DNA from: Derxia lacustris | GTDB taxonomy: Bacteria; Pseudomonadota; Gammaproteobacteria; Burkholderiales; Burkholderiaceae_E | Length of the DNA stretch: 64,000 bases | Reading direction: 5' to 3' | Assembly (NCBI RefSeq): GCF_002105195.1 | Contig: NZ_MUHU01000011.1 | Coordinates: 1 to 64,000 of the forward strand | Shown here: one piece after another, positions 2 through 26,163 of the stretch | Position numbering within the stretch: the stretch's first letter is position 1 | Layout of the letters: every line of letters begins with the position of its first letter | Notes under the pieces: generated by a model | Told to the model about the DNA's origin: nothing | Databases searched by the model: none | The model's input: the letters and a program-made list of their open reading frames with translations, nothing else | Translations under genes and position numbers: made by a program

Positions 2-478
2 ATGCGCGCGCATCACCGCGATGCCCAGGACCGGCCGCAGTTCTCCGATCCGGCGGCCGATCCCTCGTCGCATGCGCGCATCGTGTTCCAGCTGCCGCTG
101 GTGCCCGACATCACGCTGGTCGGCTTCAACCTGACCAAGCAGCAGGTGCAGGCCGAGGACTGGTGGTTCCTGCTCGCCGAGCATCCGACCGCGCCGCGCT
201 TCGGCCTCGACCTGTTCGATGCCGGCAATCCGCGCACCGGCGAGTTCGGCGTGCAGCGCAAGAACCTCGACTGGAACGACCTCACCGACGCCGCCGGCCG
301 GCTGATGCTCGACCGCTTCCTGTCGCCGCGTTCGCGCGCGCTGTCCATCACCGACGACCGTTCCACGCCCGCCACCTTCGCGTGGCAGACCAGCGCCGCC
401 AACGTCGCGCGCGCCCTGCTCCAGAACCCGGTTCGCGCGGCCTTCGACGCCCGCAAGCTGATCGACAAGATGGCCTGA
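2..478 (+). CDS. C-terminal part of a large protein of unknown function (truncated by window edge)
   Basis: The reading frame is open to the left edge, so the first ATG is probably internal and only the last ~158 residues are visible. They contain a conserved-looking core with the motifs PDITLVGFNL, WWFLLAEHP and PRFGLDLFD, followed by a polar tail ending DARKLIDKMA. No signal peptide, membrane segment or catalytic motif is visible. Only 27 bp separate its stop from the next gene, in the same orientation, so the two are almost certainly one operon. From memory, the EHPTxPRFGLD motif occurs at the C-terminus of large uncharacterised bacterial proteins, but I know of no assigned function and cannot run a search. 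Product unknown. Confidence 0.75.
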   Translation: MRAHHRDAQDRPQFSDPAADPSSHARIVFQLPLVPDITLVGFNLTKQQVQAEDWWFLLAEHPTAPRFGLDLFDAGNPRTGEFGVQRKNLDWNDLTDAAGRLMLDRFLSPRSRALSITDDRSTPATFAWQTSAANVARALLQNPVRAAFDARKLIDKMA

Positions 479-505
479 GCCGCCCGGCTCCCGAGGAGAC
501 CCGCC

Positions 506-3500
506 ATGCCCGATCTCGACCTGGCCGCCGCGCGCGGCCGTCCGCTGGCCGCGCCCGACGCCAACGACGCGCCCGGCGAGCTGCCCTTGCTGCTGCTGCC
601 GGTGCGCATCGAGACCCGCTACAGCGACGACCGCAAGGCGCTGCGGGTGCGGCTGTTTCCGGACGACATCCACATCGACACGCTGGAGCGCGGCCTGACC
701 GATGCCGAAGCCGGCGCCGGCCGCGACTGGTGGACCGCCGTCTGGCGCGCCGACGCCACCGGCACCGACGCGGCCTGGCGCGTGCTGGTCGATGCGGTCG
801 GCAAGCGCCGCGCGCGCTGGGTTGCGGTGGCGCTCACGCCGGCCAATCTGGCGGCGCGCGCCACCGAGGCCGCGCCGGTGTTTCCGGCCACCGCCGCCCA
901 GCTCGGCGCGCCGGCAATGGCGCGGCTGCTGCCCGACCGCTTCACCGTCACCGTGATCCAGGGCGGCCAGCGCATCAGCCAGACCGGCGCGCCGCTGCCG
1001 GCCGAACTGCCGGTCGGCATGTTCGCCAAGGACGGCCGGCCGATGAAGAAGGTGAACGGCGTGACCCTGGTGGAAGGCGCCGAATGGATCGCCGACTACG
1101 CCGTGGCCGAACAGCTCGGGCTGGCGCTGACGATTGCGCTGCCGGCGCCGGGCCAGCCGGTGGATCGGCTGCTGGCCGTGGGCGTGCGCGGCGCCGTCGC
1201 GCCCGGGCAGTCGCGCGCCGATCTGGCCGATCTGCTGCAAGCGCATGCCTGCTCGGACGGCCTGGCCTTTGTCGCGCCCGGCACGCCGACCAACAACACC
1301 AGCGAGGAGCGCGCCGGCTGGCAGCGCCGGCTCGATCCGCAGCCGCCGGCGCGCGATGGCTTCACGCCGGCGGCCGGCAGCAATGCCGCCACGCTCGCGG
1401 CGGCACTCGGCCTGCCGGCGGAGCTGTTCGCCAATCTCGATCTGGCCGAGGCGACCGAGCCGGCGCTCGCCGGTCAGGCCGCAACCGCGCTCTGGCCGGC
1501 CACCTGGGCCACCTTCCTCGACCGCATCACCACGGTGCAGAACGGCCGCGCCACGCTCACCGCCGGCGACCGCGAGAACGCGCGCCGCTTTGCGCGCGAC
1601 AACCTGCGCGGCCGCGGCCCGCTGCCCACGCTGCGCATCGGCCGCCAGCCCTACGGCCTGCTGCCGGTGTCCACGCTCAAGGCCGGCTTTGCGGCCAGCA
1701 ATCCCTTCGAGACGCGGCTGCTCGCGCTGCTGACCAAGCTGCGCGGCAAGTGGCTGGCGGCGGCGGCCGATCTGCCGCATCTGGGCCAGGGCGAGACCGA
1801 TACCGTGCTGCCCGAGCTGCTCGGCATGGCGCCGGCCTCGGTCGCGCTGCGGGTGCGCAGCGTGCTGTCGTCGCCGTTCGCCCAGCTCGCCAGCAAGGTC
1901 ACGGGCGGTTCGGCCAACGAGCTGGCGGTCGAGAACCTGATCGACGAGCTGATCTGGGAAGACCTGATCGCCAATGCCAGCCTGGTGCATCCGACCGGCT
2001 CGCTGTCGGCCAGCCGGCCGCTGTGGCTGGCGCTGGCCGATGCCGGGCGCGATGCCGCCGCGCTGCGCGCCATCGTCGCCGGCCAGACGCCGGAGATCAC
2101 CAGCGTGTTGCAGGCGCTGGTCGCGCTCGGCTGGCAGCGCGCCTCGGCCGAAGTGGCGCGCGCGAGCGGCGGCGGCCGGCTGATCGATGCCATCGGCGTG
2201 GCCACGCTGGTCGACGGCGCGGCGCGCGAGCGCGTGGCCGGGCTGGCGGCGCGCGCGCAACGCGCCGAGCGCATCGATGCGCAGGTGTTCTTCGGCGAGG
2301 CCGCCAGCATTGCCGCCACCGCGCCCGAGCTGCATGCGGTATCGCTGGAGGAAGTGCAGCCGGTCGCGGCGCTGCGCAGCGGCTTTGCCGACCTCGCGTT
2401 CAAGAGCAGCAATGCCGCCGCGCGCGCCGAATTCGGCAGCCGCGCCCTCACCGACTGGCTCGGCGCGAACGGCCGGCTGGCCGAGCTGCGCACCGCCATC
2501 GAAGCCTGGGCCGCGCAACTCGAAGCCGATGCCGCCAAGCCTGCTGACGCTTACCGCTACGACCACCGGCTGCTGGTCGCCGAGACGCTCGATTGCGCCT
2601 CGCACCGACTCGACGCCTGGCTGACGGCGCTGGTCGAATCGCGCCGGCGCAATCTCAAGCCGGTCGCCGAGACCGGCCTCGTCGTCGGCGCCTTCGGCTG
2701 GGTCGAGAACATCGTGCCGGCCCGGGCCAGCGCGCCCGACGGCGGCTATGTGCATGCGCCCAGCCCCGCCCATGCCGCCACCGCCGGCATCCTGCGCAGC
2801 GCCTATCTCACGCACAACAGCTCCAGGGCCGACACCGGCGCCTTCTCCATCGACCTGAGCAGCCAGCGCGTGCGGCGCGCCAGCTATCTGCTGGATGGCG
2901 TGCGCGGCGGCCAGACGCTGTCGGGCCTGCTCGGCTATGCGATCGAGCGGCGCATCCACGAGGCGGCGCTCGACCGCATCGTGCTGTCGCTGCGCACCAT
3001 CGCGCCGCTGCAACAGGGCCGGCTGACCGACCGGGGCCAGACCGTGCCGCGCGGCGACATCGAGGTGCTGGCGGCCAACAACGTGGTCGACGGCATCGAC
3101 CTGATCGAGAAATACCAGGGCAAGGTCGCCGGCTGGAACGCCGCCAAGGTGCTGCAGAAGATCAACCAGCGCCCGACCGAGAATCCCTATCTCGACGCCG
3201 CCTACCCGTGGCCGGCACTGAGCGCCGCCGAATGGGGCGCGGTGAAGAAGGCCATCGAGACCGCCGCCGCCGATCTGGATGCGGTCGCCGATCTGCTCAT
3301 GGCCGAGTCGGTGCATCAGCTGGCGCAGGGCAATGCGGCGCGCGCCGGCGCCGCGCTCGATGCGGCCAGCGGCGGCGACACCGCCGCGCCGCTGCCCGAC
3401 GTGGCCGCCTCGCGCATCGAGGGCGCGCCCATCACCCACCGGCTGCTCACGCTGCTGCCAGCCGCCGGCCCGAGCTGGAATGCGGCCCGCCCGCGCGCCA

Positions 3501-4927
3501 GGGCCGCGCCCGAGCTGGAGGCCTGGGCCGTCGCGCGCCTCGGCGATGCCGCCAGCGTGGCGGTCGCGCGGCGCGCCGACGCCAGCGTCATCACGCTCGC
3601 CGACAGCGGCTTCTGCGCCCTCGATCTGGTGCTCGAAGCCGGCAGCGTGCGGCTGCTGGAACAGCGCCTGCGCGCCGCCCTGGCCGGCGCCGGCTGGGAT
3701 GCGGACACGCCCTGGCTCGACCTGCCCGACGCCGATCTGCCGGCCGGCCAGCGCGCGATCGGCGATGTGGCCGAACTCGCCGCCACGCTGCGCTCGGTGC
3801 TGGCCAGCGCCCGGCCGCTCGCCGCCGACGATCTGGCCGCACCCGGCATGCCCGACAGCCGGCCGACCGACGCCACCGCGCTCGACGCTGCCTTCCAGCG
3901 CCTGAACAGCGCCATCGATGCGCTCGACCTGCGCGCCCAGTCGGTCGCTGCGCTGCTCGCCAATGCGCCGGTCGAGGCCGGGCCGCTGCGCGCCGCGCTC
4001 GAAGCGCTGGCCGCCTTCGGCATCTCGCTGCCCGACACGGCCGACGCCGGTCTGCCCAACGCGGCCCAGCTCGCGCTCACCGAGGCGGCGCGCCGCATCC
4101 AGCGCGGCGAGGCGGCGCTCACGCCCGGCCGGCCGCTGCGCGCCGACGACATCGAACGCGCGGCCGAGGCGGTGTTCGGCGATGGCTTCCGGCTGCCGGT
4201 CGCGCTCGCCGCGCCGGCCGCGCCCGACGGCTGGCAGGCGGCCTTCGCGCCCGGCGCCGTCACGGCCGGCGATGCCGCGCTGCGGCGCTATCTGGCCGAC
4301 GCCGCCTCGGTGCGCGACGGCGCCCGGCGCCAGCTCGAAGCGCTGATGCTCGGCGACACGCTCGGCCTGCCGGCCAGCCTCGCGCTGGCGCAACTGGCCG
4401 CGCCCGGCCGCATCACGGCCGACTGGTGGGTCGGCGACCGCATGCCGCCCACCGCCGAGACGCCCGACGCCGCAACCGTCAGCATCGTGGCCGAGCTACC
4501 GGCCGGCTACGACCCGGCCGCGAGCGCCGCCGGGCTGCTCCTCGATCACTGGGTCGATCAGCTGCCGGTGCGCGGCAAGACCGGCGCCGACGCCGACGCC
4601 GCCGTCGCCACCCGCGTGACCACCGGCATCGCCTTCGAAGGCCAGGCCGCCAGCGCGCGCGCGCCGCAAAGCCTGCTGCTCGGCATCTCGCCCGACGGCG
4701 GCCGCTGGACCACCGCGCGCCTCAACGCGCTGCTGGAGGAGACGCTGGAGCTGGCGCGCATCCGCCTCGTCACGCTGGAGCGCACCAACGGCGCGGCGCG
4801 GGTGCTGCCGGCGCTCTACGCATCGAGCTGGTCGCTGCAAGGCGAAAGCGCCTTCGACCTGCGCTACGTGGCCGAAAAGATCGCCGACCTCGGCGCCATC
4901 GCCCAGTTCGTCAAGGAAGCGCCATGA
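506..4927 (+). CDS. 1473-residue protein of unknown function, middle gene of the left-edge operon
   Basis: I do not recognise a function. The start is supported by GAGGAG eight bases upstream of the ATG. The protein is rich in Ala, Leu and Asp and has no signal peptide or membrane segment. Conserved-looking blocks are LPVRIETRY (about residue 32), FPDDIHIDT (about 52), FVAPGTPTNNT (about 254), IGRQPYGLLPV (about 378), and LDGVRGGQTLSGLLGY followed by AIERRIHE (about 797-820). The end is a compact block, SSWSLQGESAFDLRY. The even spread of motifs over about 1470 residues suggests a multidomain soluble or structural protein. Its stop overlaps the ATG of a 17-codon ORF (ATGA). The three genes look co-translated and are probably subunits of one assembly; that is inference. 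Confidence 0.8.
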   Translation: MPDLDLAAARGRPLAAPDANDAPGELPLLLLPVRIETRYSDDRKALRVRLFPDDIHIDTLERGLTDAEAGAGRDWWTAVWRADATGTDAAWRVLVDAVGKRRARWVAVALTPANLAARATEAAPVFPATAAQLGAPAMARLLPDRFTVTVIQGGQRISQTGAPLPAELPVGMFAKDGRPMKKVNGVTLVEGAEWIADYAVAEQLGLALTIALPAPGQPVDRLLAVGVRGAVAPGQSRADLADLLQAHACSDGLAFVAPGTPTNNTSEERAGWQRRLDPQPPARDGFTPAAGSNAATLAAALGLPAELFANLDLAEATEPALAGQAATALWPATWATFLDRITTVQNGRATLTAGDRENARRFARDNLRGRGPLPTLRIGRQPYGLLPVSTLKAGFAASNPFETRLLALLTKLRGKWLAAAADLPHLGQGETDTVLPELLGMAPASVALRVRSVLSSPFAQLASKVTGGSANELAVENLIDELIWEDLIANASLVHPTGSLSASRPLWLALADAGRDAAALRAIVAGQTPEITSVLQALVALGWQRASAEVARASGGGRLIDAIGVATLVDGAARERVAGLAARAQRAERIDAQVFFGEAASIAATAPELHAVSLEEVQPVAALRSGFADLAFKSSNAAARAEFGSRALTDWLGANGRLAELRTAIEAWAAQLEADAAKPADAYRYDHRLLVAETLDCASHRLDAWLTALVESRRRNLKPVAETGLVVGAFGWVENIVPARASAPDGGYVHAPSPAHAATAGILRSAYLTHNSSRADTGAFSIDLSSQRVRRASYLLDGVRGGQTLSGLLGYAIERRIHEAALDRIVLSLRTIAPLQQGRLTDRGQTVPRGDIEVLAANNVVDGIDLIEKYQGKVAGWNAAKVLQKINQRPTENPYLDAAYPWPALSAAEWGAVKKAIETAAADLDAVADLLMAESVHQLAQGNAARAGAALDAASGGDTAAPLPDVAASRIEGAPITHRLLTLLPAAGPSWNAARPRARAAPELEAWAVARLGDAASVAVARRADASVITLADSGFCALDLVLEAGSVRLLEQRLRAALAGAGWDADTPWLDLPDADLPAGQRAIGDVAELAATLRSVLASARPLAADDLAAPGMPDSRPTDATALDAAFQRLNSAIDALDLRAQSVAALLANAPVEAGPLRAALEALAAFGISLPDTADAGLPNAAQLALTEAARRIQRGEAALTPGRPLRADDIERAAEAVFGDGFRLPVALAAPAAPDGWQAAFAPGAVTAGDAALRRYLADAASVRDGARRQLEALMLGDTLGLPASLALAQLAAPGRITADWWVGDRMPPTAETPDAATVSIVAELPAGYDPAASAAGLLLDHWVDQLPVRGKTGADADAAVATRVTTGIAFEGQAASARAPQSLLLGISPDGGRWTTARLNALLEETLELARIRLVTLERTNGAARVLPALYASSWSLQGESAFDLRYVAEKIADLGAIAQFVKEAP

Positions 4928-4977
4928 GCCGCGCCGTCCGCGTCCCGACCCAATCCGCACCGGAGCTGCCGTCATGA
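4924..4977 (+). CDS. 17-codon coupling micro-ORF between the two large unknown genes
   Basis: Starts with ATG at 4924 inside the ATGA that ends the 1473-residue gene. It stops with the TGA at 4975-4977, which overlaps the ATG (4974) of the next gene. It encodes MSRAVRVPTQSAPELPS. Both junctions are 4-bp ATGA overlaps, so ribosomes could pass through all three frames without dissociating. It may be translated only to couple the flanking genes, be a leader peptide, or be fortuitous; the downstream gene also has its own GGAG nine bases ahead of its ATG. Confidence 0.4.
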   Translation: MSRAVRVPTQSAPELPS

Positions 4978-6779
4978 GCGACACCGTCAATGTCATCGCC
5001 AACCGGCCGATCCTGGCCGAGCTGAGGTTTGCGCTGCTCGAACCGCCGGCCTGGACCCGGCTCGAGCCGGTCTCGGTCACCGGCGATCCGGCGCCCGGGC
5101 TGGCCATGAGCACGCTGGATCCGCTCTGGGCGCTGGGCCGGCAATGGCAGTTCGGCGAGTTCGCCGGCGAGGACGCCGGCACGCCGCTCGGCGTGAACGT
5201 GCTGGCCACCGCCCAGCTGCTCAGCGGCTGGCGCCCGGGCGACCTCGGCGCCAACCCGGTGCTCGACGGCGCGCTGCCGCTCGGCAACAACCAGCCGCTG
5301 GAGCCGGCGGTCGAAGCCGAACCGCCGGCGCCACAAGGCCCGGGCTGGCGGCTGCTGGCCGAGGCCGGCCATGTGCTGCTGCGCGCGCTGGCCGAAGCCG
5401 ATTTCGACGCCAGCGCGCTCGCCGCGAGCTTTCCGCTGCCGGTCGATGCGCCCGCGCCGGCCGGCGTGCGCGAGACCGAATGGCCGCGTCCGCGCCTGTG
5501 GCGCACGCTCGCGCGCGGTGTGCCCGATGCCGAAGCCGTGGCCGCGTCGCTGGAAGCGGCGGGCTATGGCACCGCCGGTCCGGCGCCCGATCCGGCCGAT
5601 GCGGCGGCGGTCGCGGCCGCAGCAGCCGCCCTGCCCGCGCCGCCCGACTGGCTCGCCGCCGCACCCGACGCGGCCAAGCTCGCCGCCGCCGATTGGCTCG
5701 CCTGGTATCGCGCCCAGGTCGCGCCGCGCCCGGCCGGCGCCACGCCCAGCTGGATCGACGAGCGGCTCGAATACCGCTTTGCCGTGCGCGCCGGCGGCGA
5801 GGCCAGGCATCAGGTGCTGGTCGCGCCGCTGCATGACGGCGGCCTGGTCGACTGGTCGAGCTTCGACCTGGCGCGCGGCCTGCGCATGCCGCTCGGCGAC
5901 GCCGCCCCGCCCGACAGCACGCAGGCGGTCGAAGTCGATGTGCTCGCCTCGCCGCTGCGCTTTGGCGGCATGCCGTCCGACCGGCTCTGGCAGTTCGAGG
6001 ACGGCAGCGTCAACCTCGGCCAGCTCGAAACCCAGCGCCACGACCTCGCGCGGCTGTGCTTCACCGAGTTCGCGATGGTCTACAGCAGCGACTGGTTCGC
6101 CGTGCCGGTCGACGTGCCGGCCGGCAGCTTCACCACCGTGCGCAAGCTCAGCTACACCACCACCTTCGGCGAAACCATCGTCGTGCCGCCCGCCGACGAC
6201 CGCACGCGCGGCGGCCGCTTCCGGCTGTTCGAACTCAGCATCGCCGGCACCGATGCCACCGTCGACGGCCTGCTCGTGCCTCCGACCGCGCGCGGCACCC
6301 TCGAAGGCCGCCCGCTCGAAGACGTGCTCATCCTGCGCGACGAAGCCGCCAACATGGCCTGGGCCGTCGAGCGCAGCGTGCAAGGCCCGAGCGGCGATCC
6401 GCGCAACCGCGCCGACGAAGTGCCCGACGCGCCGCCCGTGCCCGAGCGCCTCGCCGGCACCGATCTGCAATACCTGTTCGCCAGCAGCGTGCCGCACCAC
6501 TGGATTCCGCTGGTGCCGGTGGCGGGCGGCGCCGCCGGCGGCTTTGCGCTGCGCAAGGGCACGACCGGCGACAGCGACGACAGCCGCGGCGCCCTGCTCG
6601 CCGCCACGCCCTTCGACCTCAAGGACGAGGAAGTCGTGCGCGAAGGCGTGCGGGTGCGGCGCGTGCCGGCACTCGCGCGCGGCCCGCTCGGCGAGCGGCT
6701 GCGCTGGATTGCGCGGCGGGTGAGCGTGGGGCGTGGCGAGGGCAACAGCGGGTTGCGGTTTGATGAGGCGGAGGGGTGA
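4974..6779 (+). CDS. 601-residue protein of unknown function, last gene of the left-edge operon
   Basis: Unknown function. GGAG upstream and an ATGA overlap with the micro-ORF support the start. The N-terminus carries RFALLEPPAWTRLEP and then a striking motif, LDPLWALGRQWQFGEF followed by AGEDAGTP (about residues 44-67). Similar motifs occur, as far as I recall, only in uncharacterised proteins. Later blocks include WLAWYRAQV (about 240), SDRLWQFEDGSVNLG (about 336) and FTEFAMVYSSDWF (about 362), and VPHHWIPLVPV (about 507). No signal peptide or membrane helix is visible. The last 30 residues are basic (LRWIARRVSVGRGEG). It is the last gene before the accessory segment at 6780, so the operon ends here. 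Confidence 0.8.
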   Translation: MSDTVNVIANRPILAELRFALLEPPAWTRLEPVSVTGDPAPGLAMSTLDPLWALGRQWQFGEFAGEDAGTPLGVNVLATAQLLSGWRPGDLGANPVLDGALPLGNNQPLEPAVEAEPPAPQGPGWRLLAEAGHVLLRALAEADFDASALAASFPLPVDAPAPAGVRETEWPRPRLWRTLARGVPDAEAVAASLEAAGYGTAGPAPDPADAAAVAAAAAALPAPPDWLAAAPDAAKLAAADWLAWYRAQVAPRPAGATPSWIDERLEYRFAVRAGGEARHQVLVAPLHDGGLVDWSSFDLARGLRMPLGDAAPPDSTQAVEVDVLASPLRFGGMPSDRLWQFEDGSVNLGQLETQRHDLARLCFTEFAMVYSSDWFAVPVDVPAGSFTTVRKLSYTTTFGETIVVPPADDRTRGGRFRLFELSIAGTDATVDGLLVPPTARGTLEGRPLEDVLILRDEAANMAWAVERSVQGPSGDPRNRADEVPDAPPVPERLAGTDLQYLFASSVPHHWIPLVPVAGGAAGGFALRKGTTGDSDDSRGALLAATPFDLKDEEVVREGVRVRRVPALARGPLGERLRWIARRVSVGRGEGNSGLRFDEAEG

Positions 6780-6794
6780 AACCCGGGTCTGATC

Positions 6795-6811
6795 GCAATT
6801 GCTGCAATTGC
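6795..6811. repeat. Two copies of the palindrome GCAATTGC
   Basis: GCAATTGC occurs at 6795-6802 and 6804-6811, immediately after the unknown operon and next to the terminator hairpin. This short AT-rich patch stands out from its surroundings. No function can be assigned; it may mark the edge of the accessory segment. Confidence 0.35.
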
Positions 6812-6841
6812 AATTACGATTCCCGCGCCACAAAGAGCAAA

Positions 6842-6873
6842 AAGGGCGATTCGATTTGCGTCGAATCGCCCTT
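6842..6873 (-). terminator. Rho-independent terminator for the small orphan gene
   Basis: A perfect 13-bp inverted repeat (AAGGGCGATTCGA, 6-base loop, complement) is followed on the minus strand by TTTTTGCTCTTT. The T-rich side identifies it as the terminator of the minus-strand gene ending at 6935. The stem may also stop read-through from the plus-strand operon ending at 6779, although that side has no T-run. Confidence 0.75.
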
Positions 6874-6934
6874 CTGCATTCTGGTGGGTACCTTGGGAAG
6901 CACCACACCAATCCAGGTTCCGAAGGGAGGTCAC

Positions 6935-7201
6935 CTAGCCGCCCTTATGAAAACAGTCTCCCAGAGCTTCAATACCCTTCGTTTTAATTGCCAAGATCAT
7001 GGTGTATCGGCTCCCGTAGTTGTACCTACCCTTGTGAACAATTACGTCAACCTCGCCAGTTCTTTTCGTTGGAAGTACAAGGTAGTCAGCCAATCTGATC
7101 GCCGCATCAATTTCTTCGTTCAATGTGAGCTTCAAAGCCCCCGAGCTTTCACCAAGACGAACAGCGAATTGGTACAAGTACTTCATATCGTCGGCGTGCA
7201 T
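6935..7201 (-). CDS. Small orphan protein (88 aa), unknown function
   Basis: I do not recognise this protein. It is soluble and mixed in charge, begins MHADDMKYLYQFAVRLGES and has a central EVDVIVHKGRYNYGSRY segment. The start is supported by AAAGGAA a few bases upstream; an internal Met at residue 6 is an alternative. A strong terminator (6842-6873) follows in the right orientation. Base composition is clearly lower in GC than the flanking core genes, and it lies in a segment with a transposase remnant next to a tRNA gene, so horizontal acquisition is likely. Two direct repeats sit just upstream of its ribosome site. Confidence 0.55.
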   Translation of the reverse strand: MHADDMKYLYQFAVRLGESSGALKLTLNEEIDAAIRLADYLVLPTKRTGEVDVIVHKGRYNYGSRYTMILAIKTKGIEALGDCFHKGG

Positions 7202-7212
7202 GTGTTCCTTTC

Positions 7213-7237
7213 ATGGATGCATCCGAGATGGATGCAT
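7213..7237 (-). promoter_or_regulatory. Tandem ATGGATGCAT repeats upstream of the orphan gene
   Basis: The 10-mer ATGGATGCAT occurs at 7213-7222 and 7228-7237, spaced by 15 bp. The first copy lies within the palindrome GGATGCATCC (7215-7224). The repeats are immediately upstream of the ribosome site of the 88-residue gene, a position suited to an operator or an RNA structure. Function is inferred from position only. Confidence 0.3.
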
Positions 7238-7273
7238 GCACAGAACCATATCCCGGCCGCACTAAAAACCTGC

Positions 7274-7609
7274 TTAGGCGAGATTTCGCACTTCGCGTAC
7301 CCAGGACAGCGATCTCACGCCGTGCAGTGGATCATCGGAACGGCATTTGTCGTCGACGCTGGCGGCACTGGCAGTAACGCCATGCACCATGGCCGATTCG
7401 GTATCGATGCCGATATGGGCCTTCATGCAGAAGTACCACTGCAGGCCTTTCTCAGCCCGCAGAATCGCAGGGTTGCGGCATCGAAAGATTGCGTCGTCGA
7501 TCAGGCTCAGTTCCACAAAGCGGCGCATAGGCTCGCTTTCGCGCAACTCGTCTTGCATTGCCAGATCGGACAGCGCGAACCATTGCCGCATGAAATAGAT
7601 GGGCAGCAT
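7274..7609 (-). pseudogene. Degenerate IS5-family transposase remnant
   Basis: The minus-strand translation MLPIYFMRQWFALSD and then ELSLIDDAI match the N-terminal part of IS5-type transposases. After a break it resumes with KGLQWYFCMKAHIGIDTES and MVHGVTASAASVDD, which match the region after the first catalytic Asp. The roughly 85-90 residues normally between these blocks, including the first DDE aspartate, are missing, and homology ends before the remaining catalytic residues. The frame continues upstream into sequence that is not transposase-like. I see no terminal inverted repeats. It is a decayed, immobile insertion. Confidence 0.75.
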
Positions 7610-7826
7610 CATTCGAGCATCCGTCGCGCGGATTGATCTTCGGATCGCAGGGCTTACCGGTCGGGGAGATCGGCAGGCGCTACAAGACACAAGGCAAGCG
7701 GGCCATGCCGCCAGCGCAAGTAATGGATTTTGTGGGAAATATGGGATGACGATTTGGGACACCAGTCCCAAACCGCGAACCCTAGACGCGCAAATGCCTG
7801 ACGAATCAGGCATTTGGCTTACTGAA

Positions 7827-7905
<79 letters not shown>

Positions 7906-7926
7906 GGCTATTTCAATTCTGCCGCA

Positions 7927-7964
7927 GGAAACCGCTCATGCCATTTGCAGCAATCGCGGTTTCC
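7927..7964 (-). terminator. Inverted repeat between rpoD and tRNA-Ile
   Basis: GGAAACCGC (7927-7935) and its exact complement (7956-7964) form a 9-bp stem with a 20-base loop just after the rpoD stop. No T-run follows. It could end rpoD transcription or separate it from processing of the downstream tRNA. Confidence 0.4.
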
Positions 7965-7969
7965 GTCGA

Positions 7970-10375
<2,406 letters not shown>

Positions 10376-10507
10376 GGATCGCTGAGTTATCCAGAGCACG
10401 ACGCGGGTGGCGCCGTGGCAAAGCCCGTGCAAACCAACTTGCCGCCGGTGTCTTCGGGCTCGACAGACGCGAGCGGCGGGCGCAAGTCCTTGAATGGAAA
10501 ACCAATT

Positions 10508-10533
10508 ATTGTAGCAAACGCGCCACTTTCAAG
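10508..10533 (-). promoter_or_regulatory. Putative rpoD promoter (extended -10)
   Basis: On the minus strand TGCTACAAT (10508-10516) is a good extended -10 element about 130 bp before rpoD. CTTGAAA lies 13 bp further upstream; that spacing is too short for a standard sigma-70 -35 but allows activation in other modes. It overlaps the 3' end of dnaG, giving rpoD independent expression. Confidence 0.45.
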
Positions 10534-12355
10534 CCCCGGATATTTCATTACCAGACGTTCGGAGTTTGATGCGCTCCGCTTGCAGCTCACGAAACTGGGT
10601 CATGTCCATGCCCGCTCCTTGCGCAATGAGCTGCTGGATTTCCGCCTCGACCCGGTTCAGCCTCAGGCGCGCGAGGCCTTGCGCAAGTTCCGTGCGCGCC
10701 GGCGCGAGTTCGGCATCGTCCTCGGGTGAATCCTGACTCGGCTCAATCCCGGCGGCGGGCGCGGCCGGCAATTCGGCATCGACCGCTGCGCGCAACTCGG
10801 CCGGCGGGTCGAACTGCTGAAGCTGCGCATGCAGCATCGCCGTCGTCACCGCGCCCTCGCCGGCACGCGCCAGCTGGATGAGCAGCCGCAGCGATTCCTC
10901 GAGCGGACTGCCCGCCAGCAGCACCGCTTCGTCGTCCGGCGCGAGTTCGCGCGCCAGCACCGGATGGCGCGCGAGCCGGCGCAGCAAGTTCTGTTCGAGC
11001 GAGGCGACGGCTGCGCGCGCGGCCTTGGGCGGCGCCGGCCGCTGCGACCAGCGCGACACGCCCAGCGCCTTCATCGCCGCGCCGGTGTCGATCTGCGCCA
11101 GCCGCGCCAGCTCGTTGCCCAGCTGCGTGCGCAGCGCCGCGCCCGCCACCTGGCCGATGAGCGGCTTGGCGCTCGACATCAGCCGCGACCGCCCTTCGGC
11201 GGTGCGCAGATCGCAATCGGCGGCCAGCTCGTGCAGCAGGAAGGCCGACAGCGGCATCGCGCTCGCCACCTCAGCCTCGAAGGCGGCGGCGCCGCGCTCG
11301 CGCACGAAGCTGTCCGGATCGTGCTCGGGCGGCAGGAACAGGAAGGACAGCAACTTGTCGTCGCCGGCATGCGGCAGGCTCGCCTCCAGCGCGCGCCAGG
11401 CCGCCTTGCGACCGGCCTTGTCGCCGTCGAAGCTGAACACCACGCGGTCGATCTGACGCAGCAGCTTCTGCACATGCACCGGCGTGCAGGCGGTGCCGAG
11501 CGTGGCCACCGCATTGCCGAAGCCGCTTTGCGCCAGCGCCACCACGTCCATGTAACCCTCGACCACCAGCGCATAACCGCGCTCGCGGATCGCCTCGCGC
11601 GCCTCGAACAGCCCGTACAGCTCATTGCCCTTCTGGAACACCGGCGTCTCGGGCGAGTTGAGGTACTTGGGCTCGCCCTTGCCGATCACGCGTCCGCCAA
11701 AGCCGATGACCGCGCCGCGCGGATTGCGGATCGGGAACATCACGCGGTCGCGGAAACGGTCGTAATGCTTCGCCTTGGCGCCGTCCTCGGCCTCCTTGTC
11801 GATCACGAGGCCGGCGGTGATGAGCTCGGGCGCGTCGTAATTGTCGAAGGCGGCGCGCAGGCCATCCCAGGCGTCGGGCGCATAACCCAGGCCGAATCGT
11901 TTCGCGATTTCGCCGGTGAGTCCGCGTTGGCGCAGGTAATCGATGGCTTTCGGGCTGGCGCGCAATTGCTTCTTGTAAAAGTCGGCCGCGCGGCCGAGAA
12001 AGTCGGTGAGCGAAACCGATTCGGACTTTCGGCGCGCAATTTCGGCCGGCGGCAATCCGCCGTCCTCGCGCACCACCTGCATGCCCACGCGGCCGGCCAG
12101 ATCCTCGACCGCTTCAGGAAAGGTGAGCCCGCTGTATTCCATGACGAAGCCAAGCGCGCTGCCGTGCGCCCCGCAGCCGAAGCAGTGATAGAACTGCTTG
12201 GTCGGGCTCACGGTGAAGCTCGGGCTCTTCTCGGCATGGAAGGGGCACAGGCCGGAGAAATTGGCGCCGCCCTTGCGCAGCTTCACGTAGCCGCCGATCA
12301 CGTCGACGATATCGACGCGGTCGAGCAGATCGGCGATGAAGCTTTGCGAAATCAT
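10529..12355 (-). CDS. dnaG: DNA primase
   Basis: Synthesises RNA primers at the replication fork with DnaB helicase. 608 aa, normal length. The N-terminal zinc-binding domain shows CPFHAEKSPSF and HCFGCGAHG (about residues 38-65). The catalytic RNAP-basal and Toprim regions follow, with VIGFGGRVI and YLNSPETPVF, then VEGYMDVVALAQSG (about 262-275) and the SFDGDKAGRKAA Toprim Asp pair (about 305-316). The C-terminal DnaB-interaction region is variable and rich in Ala and Glu. It lies between yqeY and rpoD as in many betaproteobacteria. Confidence 0.96.
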   Translation of the reverse strand: MISQSFIADLLDRVDIVDVIGGYVKLRKGGANFSGLCPFHAEKSPSFTVSPTKQFYHCFGCGAHGSALGFVMEYSGLTFPEAVEDLAGRVGMQVVREDGGLPPAEIARRKSESVSLTDFLGRAADFYKKQLRASPKAIDYLRQRGLTGEIAKRFGLGYAPDAWDGLRAAFDNYDAPELITAGLVIDKEAEDGAKAKHYDRFRDRVMFPIRNPRGAVIGFGGRVIGKGEPKYLNSPETPVFQKGNELYGLFEAREAIRERGYALVVEGYMDVVALAQSGFGNAVATLGTACTPVHVQKLLRQIDRVVFSFDGDKAGRKAAWRALEASLPHAGDDKLLSFLFLPPEHDPDSFVRERGAAAFEAEVASAMPLSAFLLHELAADCDLRTAEGRSRLMSSAKPLIGQVAGAALRTQLGNELARLAQIDTGAAMKALGVSRWSQRPAPPKAARAAVASLEQNLLRRLARHPVLARELAPDDEAVLLAGSPLEESLRLLIQLARAGEGAVTTAMLHAQLQQFDPPAELRAAVDAELPAAPAAGIEPSQDSPEDDAELAPARTELAQGLARLRLNRVEAEIQQLIAQGAGMDMTQFRELQAERIKLRTSGNEISGA

Positions 12356-21506: not shown

Positions 21507-21881
21507 TCAGCCGCAGCGGCGCACCGGACAGGCCGGCACCGCCGGCTCGGCACCGGCCTCGGCGAGCGCCTCGGCGGCCAGCAGCACGCGGCCGTTCTCG
21601 ATCCGCAGCGGCCAGGTCTTCACCTGGCCCACATCGGGCGCCACCACCGCGCCGGTCGCCAGTTCGATGTTCCAGTTGTGCAGCGGACAGGCCACGCGCC
21701 CGCCGAACACGATGCCCTGCGACAGCGGCCCGCCCTTGTGCGGACAGCGGTCCTCCAGCGCAAACACGGCGCCCGCGCTGCGGAAGATCGCCACATCGGC
21801 GAGACCGGCTTGGGCGCGCTTCACCACGCGCGCGCCGAGTTCGGGCAGGTCGTCCAGCGCGCCCACATCGAGCCATTCCAT
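21507..21881 (-). CDS. nirD: Nitrite reductase small subunit
   Basis: Rieske-like partner of NirB. The chosen start gives MEWLDVGALDDLPELG and is preceded by AGGAGAAGGCA, an excellent ribosome site; an in-frame ATG 11 codons upstream overlaps nirB by 8 bp and is less likely. 124 aa. CPHKGGPL (about residues 48-55) and CPLHNW (about 65-70) keep both Cys and both His of a Rieske [2Fe-2S] centre, residues that several enteric NirD proteins have lost. The cysteine-containing tail ends CPVRRCG. Encoded between nirB and nasA. Confidence 0.93.
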   Translation of the reverse strand: MEWLDVGALDDLPELGARVVKRAQAGLADVAIFRSAGAVFALEDRCPHKGGPLSQGIVFGGRVACPLHNWNIELATGAVVAPDVGQVKTWPLRIENGRVLLAAEALAEAGAEPAVPACPVRRCG

Positions 21882-21906
21882 TGCCTTCTCCTGTTCGATC
21901 GTCGGG

Positions 21907-24354
21907 TTACGCATGGCTCTTGGCCTCGGCGGTCAGCGGCACGAACTGGCGCAGATCGACCTGCGCCCGCTCGGGCTCGTGCCAGGGATCGGGCAGCCCG
22001 TCGAGCGAGAACAGCAGCCGCTCATACAGCGCCTTGCGGCCCTCGGCGTCGTCGAGCACACGCGCCTTCACGTAATCCATGCCGACGCGGCTCAGGTAAT
22101 GAACCGTGCGTTCCAGATACCAACCCTCCTCGCGGTAGAGCTGGAGGAAGGCGCCGGAAATCTCCATCACCTCCTCGGCCGTGCCCACCTTGCAGAAGAA
22201 TTGCGCGACCTCGGTCTTGATGCCGCCGTTGCCGCCGATGTGGATTTCCCAGCCCGAGTCGACGCCGATCACGCCCACATCCTTGATGCCCGATTCGGCG
22301 CAATTGCGCGGGCAGCCCGACACCGCCAGCTTGACCTTGTGCGGTGCCGCCATGCGCCAGAGCATCTTCTCCAGATCGATGCCGAGGCCCGTGCTGTCCT
22401 GGGTGCCGAAGCGGCACCACTCGCTGCCGACGCAGGTCTTCACCGTGCGCAGCGTCTTGCCGTAGGCGTGGCCCGACGGCATGCCGATCTCGGTCCACAC
22501 GGCTTGCAGGTCTTCCTTCTTCACGCCGAGCAGATCGATGCGCTGGCCGCCCGTGACCTTGACCGCCGGGATCTTGAACTTGTCCACGGCGTCGGCGATG
22601 CGGCGCAGTTCGTCGGCGCTGGTCACGCCGCCCCACATGCGCGGCACGACCGAATAGGTGCCGTCCTTCTGGATGTTGGCGTGCGCGCGTTCGTTGATGA
22701 AGCGCGATTGCGGATCGTCCACCGCTTCCTTGGGCCAGGTGCTGATGAGGTAGTAGTTCATCGCCGGGCGGCAGCTCGGGCAGCCGTCGGGCGTGCGCCA
22801 GCCGAGCGCCGCGCGCGTCTGCGTCATCGAGGTGAGGTGCTGGTTGCGGATCGCGTCGCGCACCGCCTGATGCGAATGGTCGGTGCAGCCGCACATGGCC
22901 TTGACGGCGGGCGCGGCGGTGTAGTCGGCGCCGGCCGTGGCCATGAGGATTTGCTCGACCAGCCCGGTGCACGAGCCGCAGGACGCGCTCGCCTTGGTGC
23001 ACTTGCGCACCTCGTCGAGCGTGAACAGGCCCTGCTCGCGGATGGCCTTGACGATGCTTCCCTTCTTCACGCCGTTGCAGCCGCAGACCTCGGCCTCGTC
23101 GGGCAGCGCCATCGCGCGGTTGCCGCCGCCGTGGCCGCTGTCGCCGAGATGGTTCTCGCCGAACATCAGGTGCTCGCGAATCTCGTTCACATGCCGGCCT
23201 TCGCGCAGCAGCGTGAAGTACCAGGAGCCGTCTGCGGTGTCGCCGTACAGGCAGGCGCCGACCAGCTTGTCGTCCTTCAGCACCAGCTTCTTGTAGACGC
23301 CGCCGTAGGGATCGCTCAGCACGATTTCCTCGCAGCCTTCGCCACCGATGAAATCGCCGGCCGAGAACAGGTCGATGCCGGTGACCTTGAGCTTGGTGCT
23401 GGTCACGGTGCCGGCATAGGCCGCGTCGCTGGGCCCGGCCAGATGCTGGGCACAGACCTTGGCCTGCTCGAACAGCGGCGCCACCAGACCGTAGGCAATG
23501 CCGCGATGCGCCGCGCATTCGCCGACCGACCACACGCTCGGGTCGCTGGTTTGCAACGCGTCGTTGACGACGATGCCGCGATTGCAGTCGAGCCCGGCGC
23601 TCTCGGCCAGCGCGTAGTTGGGGCGGATGCCGACCGCCATCACCACCAGATCGGCCGGTAGCTGGGTGCCGTCCTTGAACCTGATCGCGGCGACGCGGCC
23701 CGATTCGCCGCGCACCAGTTCGCTGGTCTGCGCGCCCATCGCGAAGTGGATGCCGCGCGCTTCGAGCGCGGTCTGCAACAGCTTGCCGGCGGTCTTGTCG
23801 AGCTGGCGTTCCATCAGCCAGTCGCCGACGTGGACCACGGTCACGTCCATGCCGCGGATCTTCAGGCCGTTGGCGGCTTCGAGTCCGAGCAGGCCGCCGC
23901 CGATGACGACGGCATGCGTGTGCACCTTGGCGGCGGCGATCATCGCGTCGGTATCGGCGATGTCGCGGTAGGCGATCACGCCTTCCAGGTCGGCGCCCGG
24001 AATTGGCAGGATGAAGGGATTTGAGCCGGTCGCGATCAGCAGCTGGTCGTAGTCGGCGCGCTGGCCGTCGGCGGTCTCAACAAACTTGGCCGCGCGGTCG
24101 ATCTTCACGATCCTCTTGCCGGTGTGCAGCGCGATGCCGTTCTCGGCGTACCAGGGCAGCGGGTTGAGGATGATCTCGTCGATCGTCTGCTCGCCGGCCA
24201 GCACCGGCGACAGCAGGATGCGGTTGTAGTTGGGATGCGGCTCGGCGCCGAAGACGGTGATGTCGTACTTGCCCGGCGCGAGCTTGAGCAGCTCCTCCAG
24301 GGTGCGGATGCCGGCCATGCCGTTTCCGATGCAGACGAGCTTGGGCTTGTTCAT
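21907..24354 (-). CDS. nirB: NADH-dependent nitrite reductase large subunit (sirohaem)
   Basis: Cytoplasmic six-electron reduction of nitrite to ammonium. 815 aa from the ATG at 24354; the longer frame adds 20 non-conserved residues. Domains in order: FAD/NADH oxidoreductase with CIGNGMAGIRTLEEL (residues 7-21) and VVIGGGLLGLEAANGL (about 147); BFD [2Fe-2S] domain CGCNGV ... CTKASASCGSC (about 420-460); a further MCGCTDHSH block; a ferredoxin-like half-domain; and the sirohaem/[4Fe-4S] site CVGSEWCRFG and SGCPRNCAESG (about 635-680). It lies between the nrt transporter genes and nirD. Confidence 0.97.
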   Translation of the reverse strand: MNKPKLVCIGNGMAGIRTLEELLKLAPGKYDITVFGAEPHPNYNRILLSPVLAGEQTIDEIILNPLPWYAENGIALHTGKRIVKIDRAAKFVETADGQRADYDQLLIATGSNPFILPIPGADLEGVIAYRDIADTDAMIAAAKVHTHAVVIGGGLLGLEAANGLKIRGMDVTVVHVGDWLMERQLDKTAGKLLQTALEARGIHFAMGAQTSELVRGESGRVAAIRFKDGTQLPADLVVMAVGIRPNYALAESAGLDCNRGIVVNDALQTSDPSVWSVGECAAHRGIAYGLVAPLFEQAKVCAQHLAGPSDAAYAGTVTSTKLKVTGIDLFSAGDFIGGEGCEEIVLSDPYGGVYKKLVLKDDKLVGACLYGDTADGSWYFTLLREGRHVNEIREHLMFGENHLGDSGHGGGNRAMALPDEAEVCGCNGVKKGSIVKAIREQGLFTLDEVRKCTKASASCGSCTGLVEQILMATAGADYTAAPAVKAMCGCTDHSHQAVRDAIRNQHLTSMTQTRAALGWRTPDGCPSCRPAMNYYLISTWPKEAVDDPQSRFINERAHANIQKDGTYSVVPRMWGGVTSADELRRIADAVDKFKIPAVKVTGGQRIDLLGVKKEDLQAVWTEIGMPSGHAYGKTLRTVKTCVGSEWCRFGTQDSTGLGIDLEKMLWRMAAPHKVKLAVSGCPRNCAESGIKDVGVIGVDSGWEIHIGGNGGIKTEVAQFFCKVGTAEEVMEISGAFLQLYREEGWYLERTVHYLSRVGMDYVKARVLDDAEGRKALYERLLFSLDGLPDPWHEPERAQVDLRQFVPLTAEAKSHA

Positions 24355-24475
24355 GCGTGCCTCGCTGCGCGTTTCTTGCGCGTGAGAAGGGCCTGCCGAT
24401 GCGCTCGGGCGCATCGGAACGAAGGTGGTCTGGGTCTTGGATTGCCCGCGCTCAGGCGGGCCGGATGCGTGCCGC

Positions 24476-25276
<801 letters not shown>

Positions 25277-25302
25277 GGCGATGCTCCGGTGCTTTGCGGG
25301 GT

Positions 25303-26163
25303 TCAGGACTTGACGTCTTCGTAGGTGAAGGCTTGCGCCACCCGCACCAATGCCATCTCGAGGATCAGGCCCACGATGCCGATCACGAAGATCGCCACGA
25401 TGATGTTGGCCACGTTGAGGTTGTTCCACTCGTCCCAGACCCAGAAGCCCACGCCCACGCCGCCGGTCAGCATCTCGGCCGCCACGATCACCAGCCACGC
25501 GGTGCCGACGGCCAGCCGCACGCCGGTCAGGATGTAGGGCAGCACCGAGGGCAGCAGGATCTTGGTGATGACCTTCCACTCGCTCAGGTTCAGCACCTTG
25601 GCCACGTTCAGATAGTCCTGCGGCACGCGCTGCACGCCCACGGCGGTGTTGATGATCATCGGCCAGATCGAGCAGATGAAGATGGTCCAGATCGCCGCCG
25701 GATTGGCGCCCTTGAACACCAGCAGGCCGATCGGCAGCCAGGCCAGCGGCGACACCGGCCGCAGCAGCGTGATGACCGGATTGAACATGCGGCCGCAGAA
25801 CTCGGACCGGCCGATGAGGAAGCCGAACGGAATGCCGACCGCCGCCGCGAGGCCGAAGCCCATCGCCACGCGCAGCAGCGAATTGCCGATCTTGAAACCG
25901 ATGCCCACGTCGTTCGGGCCGGCCTTGTAGAACGGATCGGCAAACACCTTGAGCGCCGCATCGAACACCACCGCTGGCGACGGAATGTCGGCGGTGAACT
26001 TGTGCACCGCGATCCACACCGCCAGCAGCGCACCGAAGCCGAGCAGCGGCGCAAGGATGCGCAGCGCAATCGCGCGGGTCGCTTCCAGGGTGCGCCCCGG
26101 TGCGGGCTGCGGCGTGGGACCGGACGTGCCGGGCGCGGGAACTTGCTTGAGGACAGCGGCCAT
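25303..26163 (-). CDS. nrtB: Nitrate ABC transporter, permease
   Basis: 286 aa inner-membrane permease of the BPD type. The start MAAVLKQVPAPG is preceded by CAGGAGCCCGCC, so it is preferred over the ATG four codons earlier. A Pro-rich cytoplasmic N-terminus is followed by about six helices (for example ILAPLLGFGALLAVWIAV). The EAA-loop region with LNVAKVLNLSEWKVITKILLP contacts NrtD. Encoded between nrtA and nrtD. Confidence 0.93.
   Translation of the reverse strand: MAAVLKQVPAPGTSGPTPQPAPGRTLEATRAIALRILAPLLGFGALLAVWIAVHKFTADIPSPAVVFDAALKVFADPFYKAGPNDVGIGFKIGNSLLRVAMGFGLAAAVGIPFGFLIGRSEFCGRMFNPVITLLRPVSPLAWLPIGLLVFKGANPAAIWTIFICSIWPMIINTAVGVQRVPQDYLNVAKVLNLSEWKVITKILLPSVLPYILTGVRLAVGTAWLVIVAAEMLTGGVGVGFWVWDEWNNLNVANIIVAIFVIGIVGLILEMALVRVAQAFTYEDVKS

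Follow-up and report, generated by a model that had tools for sequence, protein, structure and literature searches.

What do the first three genes of this stretch of DNA encode, and do they make a unit of their own? The window analysed here is the 64,000-nucleotide (64-kb) stretch that opens contig C3 of the Derxia lacustris genome (NZ_MUHU01000011.1; the genome is 5.47 Mb in 58 contigs), starting at base 1 of that contig. Its left edge is occupied by three consecutive genes, here called A, B and C, which a preliminary description made from the sequence alone had set apart as an uncharacterised module of large proteins. Our results suggest that these genes form the downstream end of a mobile operon of four genes, E-A-B-C, for a multi-protein assembly.

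Extent and conservation of the E-A-B-C unit

Gene A reaches into the window from outside. Because the window begins at the first base of contig C3, the ATG of the open reading frame (ORF) at its left edge is not the true start of a gene; the frame is only the C-terminus of A. The front of A lies on contig C7, where its start overlaps by 4 bp the end of gene E, the sole DUF6603 match of the genome (Table 1). A search with a full-length acidobacterial A matched C7 and the window and no other contig, and the middle of A was found on none of the contigs. Because this one full-length relative matches both C7 and the window, we infer that C7 adjoins C3 and that the unit is E-A-B-C, interrupted where the assembly breaks within A's variable middle part. 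The preliminary description was right to place an upstream part outside the window and to group A, B and C together, but the unit has at least four genes. E passes Pfam PF20248 (DUF6603) with 329.4 bits against a cut-off of 27 over residues 295-840 of its 995, and a DUF6603 match above cut-off was present in all 20 of the other E-A-B-C genomes tested.

The motifs by which the three proteins had been singled out are all present: PRFGLD in the A frame, IGRQPYGLLPV and LDGVRGGQTLSGLLGY in B, and LGRQWQFGEF and AGEDAGTP in C. In the C motif RQWQFGEF, residues Q57, Q59 and E62 do not vary across 70 sequences, W58 being conserved in at least 90% of them, and in B residues G371, R377, Q381 and Y383 are invariant across 59. 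Because of these invariant residues, the quoted motifs are conserved rather than due to chance.

The absence of a recognisable domain in the three proteins also held up. Pfam gave no family for the window's part of A, for B or for C, and the best E-values with the same three queries were 0.54 in PHROGs and 0.14 in NCBIfam, at chance level. The NCBIfam model for antiphage ProA reached B with 9.5 bits (E 0.14) against a cut-off of 1500 bits and was discarded as a chance match; across Pfam, PHROGs, NCBIfam, PADLOC and the PDB sequences, B gave either no match or one of E 0.14 and weaker. Single-sequence and profile searches of the PDB sequences returned nothing for C and a chance match for B (E 1.3), while E and A matched helical stretches only, with best E-values of 0.0069 and 0.96. 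A structural model of C, built from the window sequence with a 70-row alignment (predicted local distance difference test score, pLDDT, 81.6; predicted template modelling score, pTM, 0.80), found no counterpart in the PDB, with a best E of 0.36 in Foldseek and a best Z of 3.1 in VIA among 996 chains. Profile comparison among E, A, B, C and a PhoD-like neighbour, gene D, revealed no shared domain. The names DUF6603 and PF20248 and six motif strings from A, B and C were absent from the 5.39 million open-access papers searched, subscription papers and preprints lying outside that search. By sequence comparison, A, B and C are in no family library searched, and E alone is in a named Pfam family, to which no function is assigned there.

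Recurrence and transmission of the operon

Scanning a genome collection of 84,980 species with a profile of C turned up 490 pattern matches and confirmed 389 relatives. We retained 80 of these, and five further loci from plasmid and phage records brought the total to 85. Genes at these loci were called by a codon-usage script rather than a standard gene finder, and their start sites are approximate. B is joined to C in 84 of the 85, being the next core gene before C in 83 and fused to it in one (L045), where 4656-11162 is a single stop-free frame of 2168 residues with the usual start methionine of C inside it. A TAG in the C match of that genome is, by its coordinates, the gene's own final stop. 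In the remaining locus, L025, B is missing and C itself is in two pieces.

The genes are also as tightly spaced as first described, with median gaps of 1 bp between E and A (53 pairs), 8 bp between A and B (71) and 2 bp between B and C (84), the window included; in the window itself the last two gaps are 27 and 46 bp. Twelve A-B gaps exceed 850 bp, 11 of them in Nitrospira loci with one extra ORF between the two genes and one from a broken B frame. The outlying gaps of 2208 bp between B and C (L037) and 2017 bp between A and B (L066) are B frames broken in two. Such two-ORF genes (B at L037 479-6165 and L066 5405-9938, C at L025 10118-11752) come from frameshifts or sequencing errors. In Rhizobium lusitanum A is split into two genes, and B likewise.

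The motif-bearing proteins do recur together in distant bacteria, as the preliminary description had it. By their titles, the 80 scanned loci come from ten bacterial phyla (nine labelled in the tree), and the plasmids raise the total to 11 plus Halobacteria; we take Polyangium to be Myxococcota and the Gemmatirosa plasmid to be Gemmatimonadota. Plasmid records held C in 14 cases, B in 13 and E in 15, and 13 records hold all three, although three of these are near-identical Streptomyces longwoodensis plasmids. A tree of C (70 rows) has two main clades and requires 15 phylum changes against a minimum of 8; nearest to the window's C are six Pseudomonadota sequences, alphaproteobacterial by name, and then one acidobacterial sequence. 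Over 37 loci (three plasmid loci, absent from the C tree, entered as clade II by default), the pairwise distances for the four genes show correlations of 0.93-0.96, and for the three pairs tested none of 1000 permutations was as high. C is rare among closer relatives. It was found in 2 of 398 genomes of a phylum sample, the D. lacustris genome included and the other doubtful (G022, E 7.7e-4), and in 4 of 399 genomes of the order, again with D. lacustris and with one weak fragment; the order search did not find it in G502, a genome of the same genus. Taken together, gene order, spacing, plasmid carriage, tree, rarity and co-evolution describe a unit that is inherited, and probably also transferred, as a whole. 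The stoichiometric assembly proposed in the preliminary description is putative, and is argued from the coupling of the genes, their co-evolution, the one B-C fusion and one split-gene locus.

There is little sign that the unit belongs to viruses: B matched a single unverified 40-kb metagenomic record, E matched none, and a scan of IMG/VR with C returned no relative. One record named Bacteriophage sp. (L014, MT835531.1) carries A-B-C with regulator-like genes, as judged by eye, and may be a bacterial contig. Other records vary the theme. A Streptomyces europaeiscabiei plasmid (L146) has tyrosine recombinase genes on both sides of the operon (178-4332 and 21600-25886). A Streptomyces anthocyanicus plasmid has a solitary C (L147 17293-19098) after two IS5 transposases, and was missing from the results of the B and E plasmid searches. 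Nitrospira relatives carry, next to the complete operon, a second C that is truncated (L056 12065-12565; G435, contig C51, 57099-57284). On a Paenibacillus polymyxa plasmid (L151 10744-20860), a distant DUF6603 gene is followed by three large genes with sizes like those of A, B and C; these gave no A, B or C profile match, and the set lies about 9 kb behind a phage baseplate V gene.

The features of the D. lacustris locus are collected in Table 1. The inverted repeat past C is a possible, weak candidate for the end of the transcription unit, weak because the scan that found it returned 4 repeats against 3.4 expected in shuffles. Between C and an rpoD-like sigma factor gene (by eye) lie an IS5-like transposase remnant (7274-7813, minus strand, also by eye) and a tRNA-Met (7827-7905, minus strand), possibly the trace of an insertion beside the tRNA. 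On C7, the next two genes before E are on the opposite strand, one of them encoding a TonB-dependent receptor, and ordinary metabolism follows.

Table 1. Features of the E-A-B-C locus of D. lacustris (window coordinates unless contig C7 is named)
Feature	Position	Strand	Basis and remarks
Gene A, C-terminal part, 158 aa, with the PRFGLD block	2-478	+	ORF list; corresponds to residues 961-1108 of the Acidobacteria A (1112 aa)
Gene B, 1473 aa, large, soluble-looking	506-4927	+	ORF list; intact
Gene C, 601 aa, predicted mixed alpha/beta fold	4974-6779	+	ORF list and structure model; intact
Inverted repeat, 15-bp stem, 60 bp past the C stop	6840-6875		Pattern match; terminator-like on the minus strand only
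Gene E, 995 aa, DUF6603	C7:1635-4622	-	Pfam match
Gene A, N-terminal 545 aa, running off the contig end	C7:1-1638	-	Matches residues 1-523 of the Acidobacteria A

Enzyme neighbours, the E model and localisation

The genes around the core vary. Upstream regions were surveyed at 18 loci, 13 outside clade I (among them Polyangium, which is not in the C tree) and five in clade I, including that of D. lacustris. Outside clade I, 12 of the 13 loci have a hydrolase gene in front of E or fused with it, and in 9 of the 13 it encodes a PhoD-like metallophosphatase. Pfam, run on seven of these nine, gave PhoD E-values from 7e-11 to 2e-4, and the PhoD-like alignment conserves GDQIYADD, DDHE and GDVH, which we take to be the PhoD metal sites. 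Separate enzyme and E genes overlap by 4 bp in 7 of 12 pairs. Acidisphaera has an Rv2525c-like, glycoside hydrolase-like (GH-like) protein in the enzyme's place before E, and Polyangium an alpha/beta-hydrolase fused to E in one frame of 2734 residues. Nitrospira defluvii has the order PLD-E-M64 peptidase-E-A-B-C (L123 8501-19901), two enzyme-E pairs in a row, as if each copy of E were matched to its own enzyme. Nocardia instead has an S8 peptidase whose gene overlaps the end of C.

Other additions fall on A, on C and behind C. The C protein of Polyangium bears Kelch repeats and that of haloarchaea (Salinigranum) lamin-tail domains, and among 33 A proteins scanned, four have FG-GAP and one has PKD domains. 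Peptidoglycan-binding domains occur on some operon members or in the neighbour role. In Streptomyces, three chromosomal loci and one plasmid have WD40 genes after C; the genes behind C in L068 and L074, for which Pfam gave no family, we take to be tail-fibre-like. A downstream scan covered 49 loci, after 24 near-duplicates were skipped, and 136 genes, 12 of them left out for size. The downstream genes are mixed: no Pfam or PADLOC family was found in more than 3 of 124, and 59 defence families match at least one gene, in a defence scan that had no control set.

The model of E was built on an acidobacterial relative (722 residues, 36-row alignment, N-terminus left out). The core of the model is a long amphipathic beta-meander, in which more than 20 strands, each of 8-16 residues, follow one another. 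The two faces of a strand differ in hydropathy by 2.8 on average, against 1.47 after shuffling, and 8 of 25 strands are individually amphipathic at p < 0.05. In VIA, the best match of the model was the apolipoprotein B belt (Z 17.4 over 283 residues, root-mean-square deviation (rmsd) 10.5 Å), and many porins followed with Z of 13-15 over about 250 residues at 8-10 Å. Foldseek with the E model against viral models gave a best E of 1.2e-5, but at a template modelling score (TM-score) of 0.12, and this match was set aside. This one moderate model supports a core that is a lipid- or membrane-contacting sheet, closed barrel or open belt alike. The likeness to porins and to the apolipoprotein B belt is one of predicted fold, the antiparallel meander of amphipathic strands. 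Unlike porins, E has no signal peptide in a crude test, occurs in Gram-positives and archaea, and gives no sequence match and low TM-scores. Where a porin would have a Sec signal peptide and a Gram-negative producer, none of four complete E proteins had a hydrophobic N-terminus, and the family is found in Actinomycetota, Bacillota and Halobacteria.

The same test detected no hydrophobic N-terminus in 58 A, 77 B and 78 C proteins, nor in 15 of the hydrolases. Median cysteine content of the core proteins is 0.28% against 0.66% in flanking genes, and it is lower in 65 of 74 loci. The N-termini and the low cysteine content are compatible with Sec-independent export, for example by lysis, and equally with a cytosolic life.

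Possible roles of the assembly

Our working proposal is that E meets a membrane or lipid together with an enzyme partner, on a scaffold made of A, B and C. It is the likeliest of the readings considered here, though a tentative one, possible and short of probable. E would insert into or wrap lipid or membrane, with or for the neighbouring enzyme, and A, B and C would form an invariant soluble scaffold. Targets might be chosen by the Kelch or lamin-tail domains on C, the FG-GAP or PKD domains on A, or the WD40 and tail-fibre-like genes behind C. The whole assembly would leave the cell without Sec, for example by lysis, and act on cell envelopes much as Tc toxins or extracellular injection particles do, though built from unrelated proteins. 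Because no recognised enzyme gene adjoins the window's copy, the enzyme of its own clade may be encoded elsewhere or be part of A, or E itself may act. In its most specific form the proposal describes a new, non-phage-derived modular weapon or delivery machine common to bacteria and archaea, with a large beta-meander subunit entering or coating a membrane, an invariant scaffold of three proteins, an exchangeable envelope-degrading enzyme tied to the membrane subunit, an exchangeable binding domain at the C end, and a gene order that mirrors the order of assembly; this we consider somewhat unlikely.

Tc (ABC) toxins are large multi-gene assemblies with a variable enzyme part, and E-A-B-C is likewise a large multi-gene set with a variable enzyme. 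The proteins and the gene order are different. In none of the four proteins did Pfam recognise a domain of the Tc, Rhs or a related type; it gave only DUF6603, in E, so that by sequence we found no homologue of TcA, TcB or TcC.

Several observations weigh against our proposal. At all five clade-I loci, that of D. lacustris on C7 included, no recognised enzyme gene lies directly before E; near E, one of these loci has a ferritin-like gene about 230 bp away and another a 222-residue gene of unknown kind 13 bp away. In Neobacillus no hydrolase precedes E either, and the upstream gene encodes a CoA-transferase. Two of the seven PhoD-like genes fall under the curated Pfam cut-off. The E model is moderate (pLDDT 78.3, pTM 0.58, with the N-terminus left out), its VIA matches have an rmsd of about 8-11 Å, and its best Foldseek E of 4.8e-4 comes with query TM-scores of only 0.13-0.25 in the ten best rows. 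The signal-peptide test was a hydropathy threshold and not a trained predictor, and it is just as possible that A, B and C form a scaffold in the cytosol. No immunity gene was recognised, in an analysis that made no search aimed at immunity genes.

A cytosolic life would suit an intracellular assembly for lipid handling or storage, in which E would hold lipid as a soluble belt of the apolipoprotein kind, to be processed by the phospholipases and phosphatases encoded next to it. The apolipoprotein B belt as the best match of the E model, the N-termini that are not Sec-like in our crude test, and the PLD, PhoD-like and alpha/beta-hydrolase neighbours all point this way. Such a role accounts less well for the M64 and S8 peptidases, the GH-like protein and the peptidoglycan-binding domains that also occur in the neighbour role, and for the low cysteine content of the core. 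FG-GAP, PKD, Kelch and lamin-tail domains are usual on exported proteins, and domains of these types are carried by A and C. On balance a lipid-storage role appears unlikely to us.

The comparison of the proposed envelope-acting assembly with injection particles raises a different question, whether E-A-B-C serves extracellular contractile injection systems (eCIS) as an accessory or cargo set. Passages of PMC8213781 place eCIS in 1.9% of sequenced bacteria and describe them as widespread in environmental bacteria and some archaea, with toxins beside the structural genes. On that description eCIS resemble E-A-B-C, which also occurs in environmental bacteria and archaea with enzyme genes adjoining, and the genomes overlap. 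The eCIS tail-terminator family Pvc16_N was present in 37 of 60 E-A-B-C genomes (23 of 44 when 10 Nitrospira-type and 6 Streptomyces genomes are left aside) against 19 of 398 in the phylum sample, the D. lacustris genome included, a cross-phylum comparison that is unmatched for lineage or genome size. In 3 of the 37 (Streptomyces, Citricoccus and Anaerolineae), the marker sits at a distance of 27-44 kb from the operon, surrounded by contractile genes that were recognised by eye and from Pfam matches. Phage_sheath was present in 13 of 21 and 26 of 40 E-A-B-C genomes, in two sets that share one genome (G405). In the first set a sheath gene is within 50 kb of the operon in 3 of the 13 genomes, and on the same contig 330 kb away in a fourth.

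Physical linkage to eCIS did not hold beyond these cases. None of the 26 sheath-bearing genomes of the second set has the sheath on the contig of the C match, so that in most genomes the two are on different contigs, and the Pvc16_N marker is absent from 23 of the 60 operon genomes. Within the order of D. lacustris the marker is found in 51 of 399 genomes, but in 1 of the 4 with a C match, and G502 has the marker without C. Pfam found no sheath, tube, spike or baseplate protein in E, A, B and C, nor did PHROGs in the window's part of A or in B and C, and the operon thus holds no contractile gene that we could find. When E, A, B, C and D were compared with the proteins encoded in those three contractile neighbourhoods, no clear likeness emerged (lowest E 0.024, for B with one gene); the one strong match inside those regions is the operon's own C. 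A functional tie of E-A-B-C to eCIS is unproven, and a cargo or accessory role distinctly unlikely. The sheath matches of the D. lacustris genome itself are on other contigs, C12 (near 264794-267869) and C57 (near 550761-553375); Pvc16_N and sheath are both present at each, and the genome probably has two contractile injection clusters.

More doubtful still is a role in defence against phages, with effector enzymes that can be exchanged. Defence systems typically have a patchy distribution, travel on plasmids and swap their effectors, a pattern that E-A-B-C resembles. PADLOC 2023, searched at E-values up to 1, gave 0 families for five proteins (E, the N-terminal part of A, B, C and one PhoD-like neighbour), Pfam recognised no nucleotide-binding or nuclease domain in the core proteins, and in the downstream scan, which had no control set, no defence family exceeded 3 of 124 genes. 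Least probable of all, a surface or matrix structure of the producer, with hydrolases for envelope remodelling, would fit the peptidoglycan-binding, PKD, FG-GAP and lamin-tail domains on members, but fits poorly with N-termini that are not Sec-like in the crude test and with hosts that have Gram-negative, Gram-positive and archaeal envelopes.

E-A-B-C is a conserved operon of about four thousand residues, spread over 11 bacterial phyla and haloarchaea, with only the domain of E in the family libraries searched. If it does encode a delivery or membrane-acting machine, this would be a new architecture, to be set beside contractile systems and Tc toxins. A role in lipid handling would make it a prokaryotic assembly of the apolipoprotein kind. 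Under either reading, the coupling of enzyme and E and the fusion of B and C are testable starting points.

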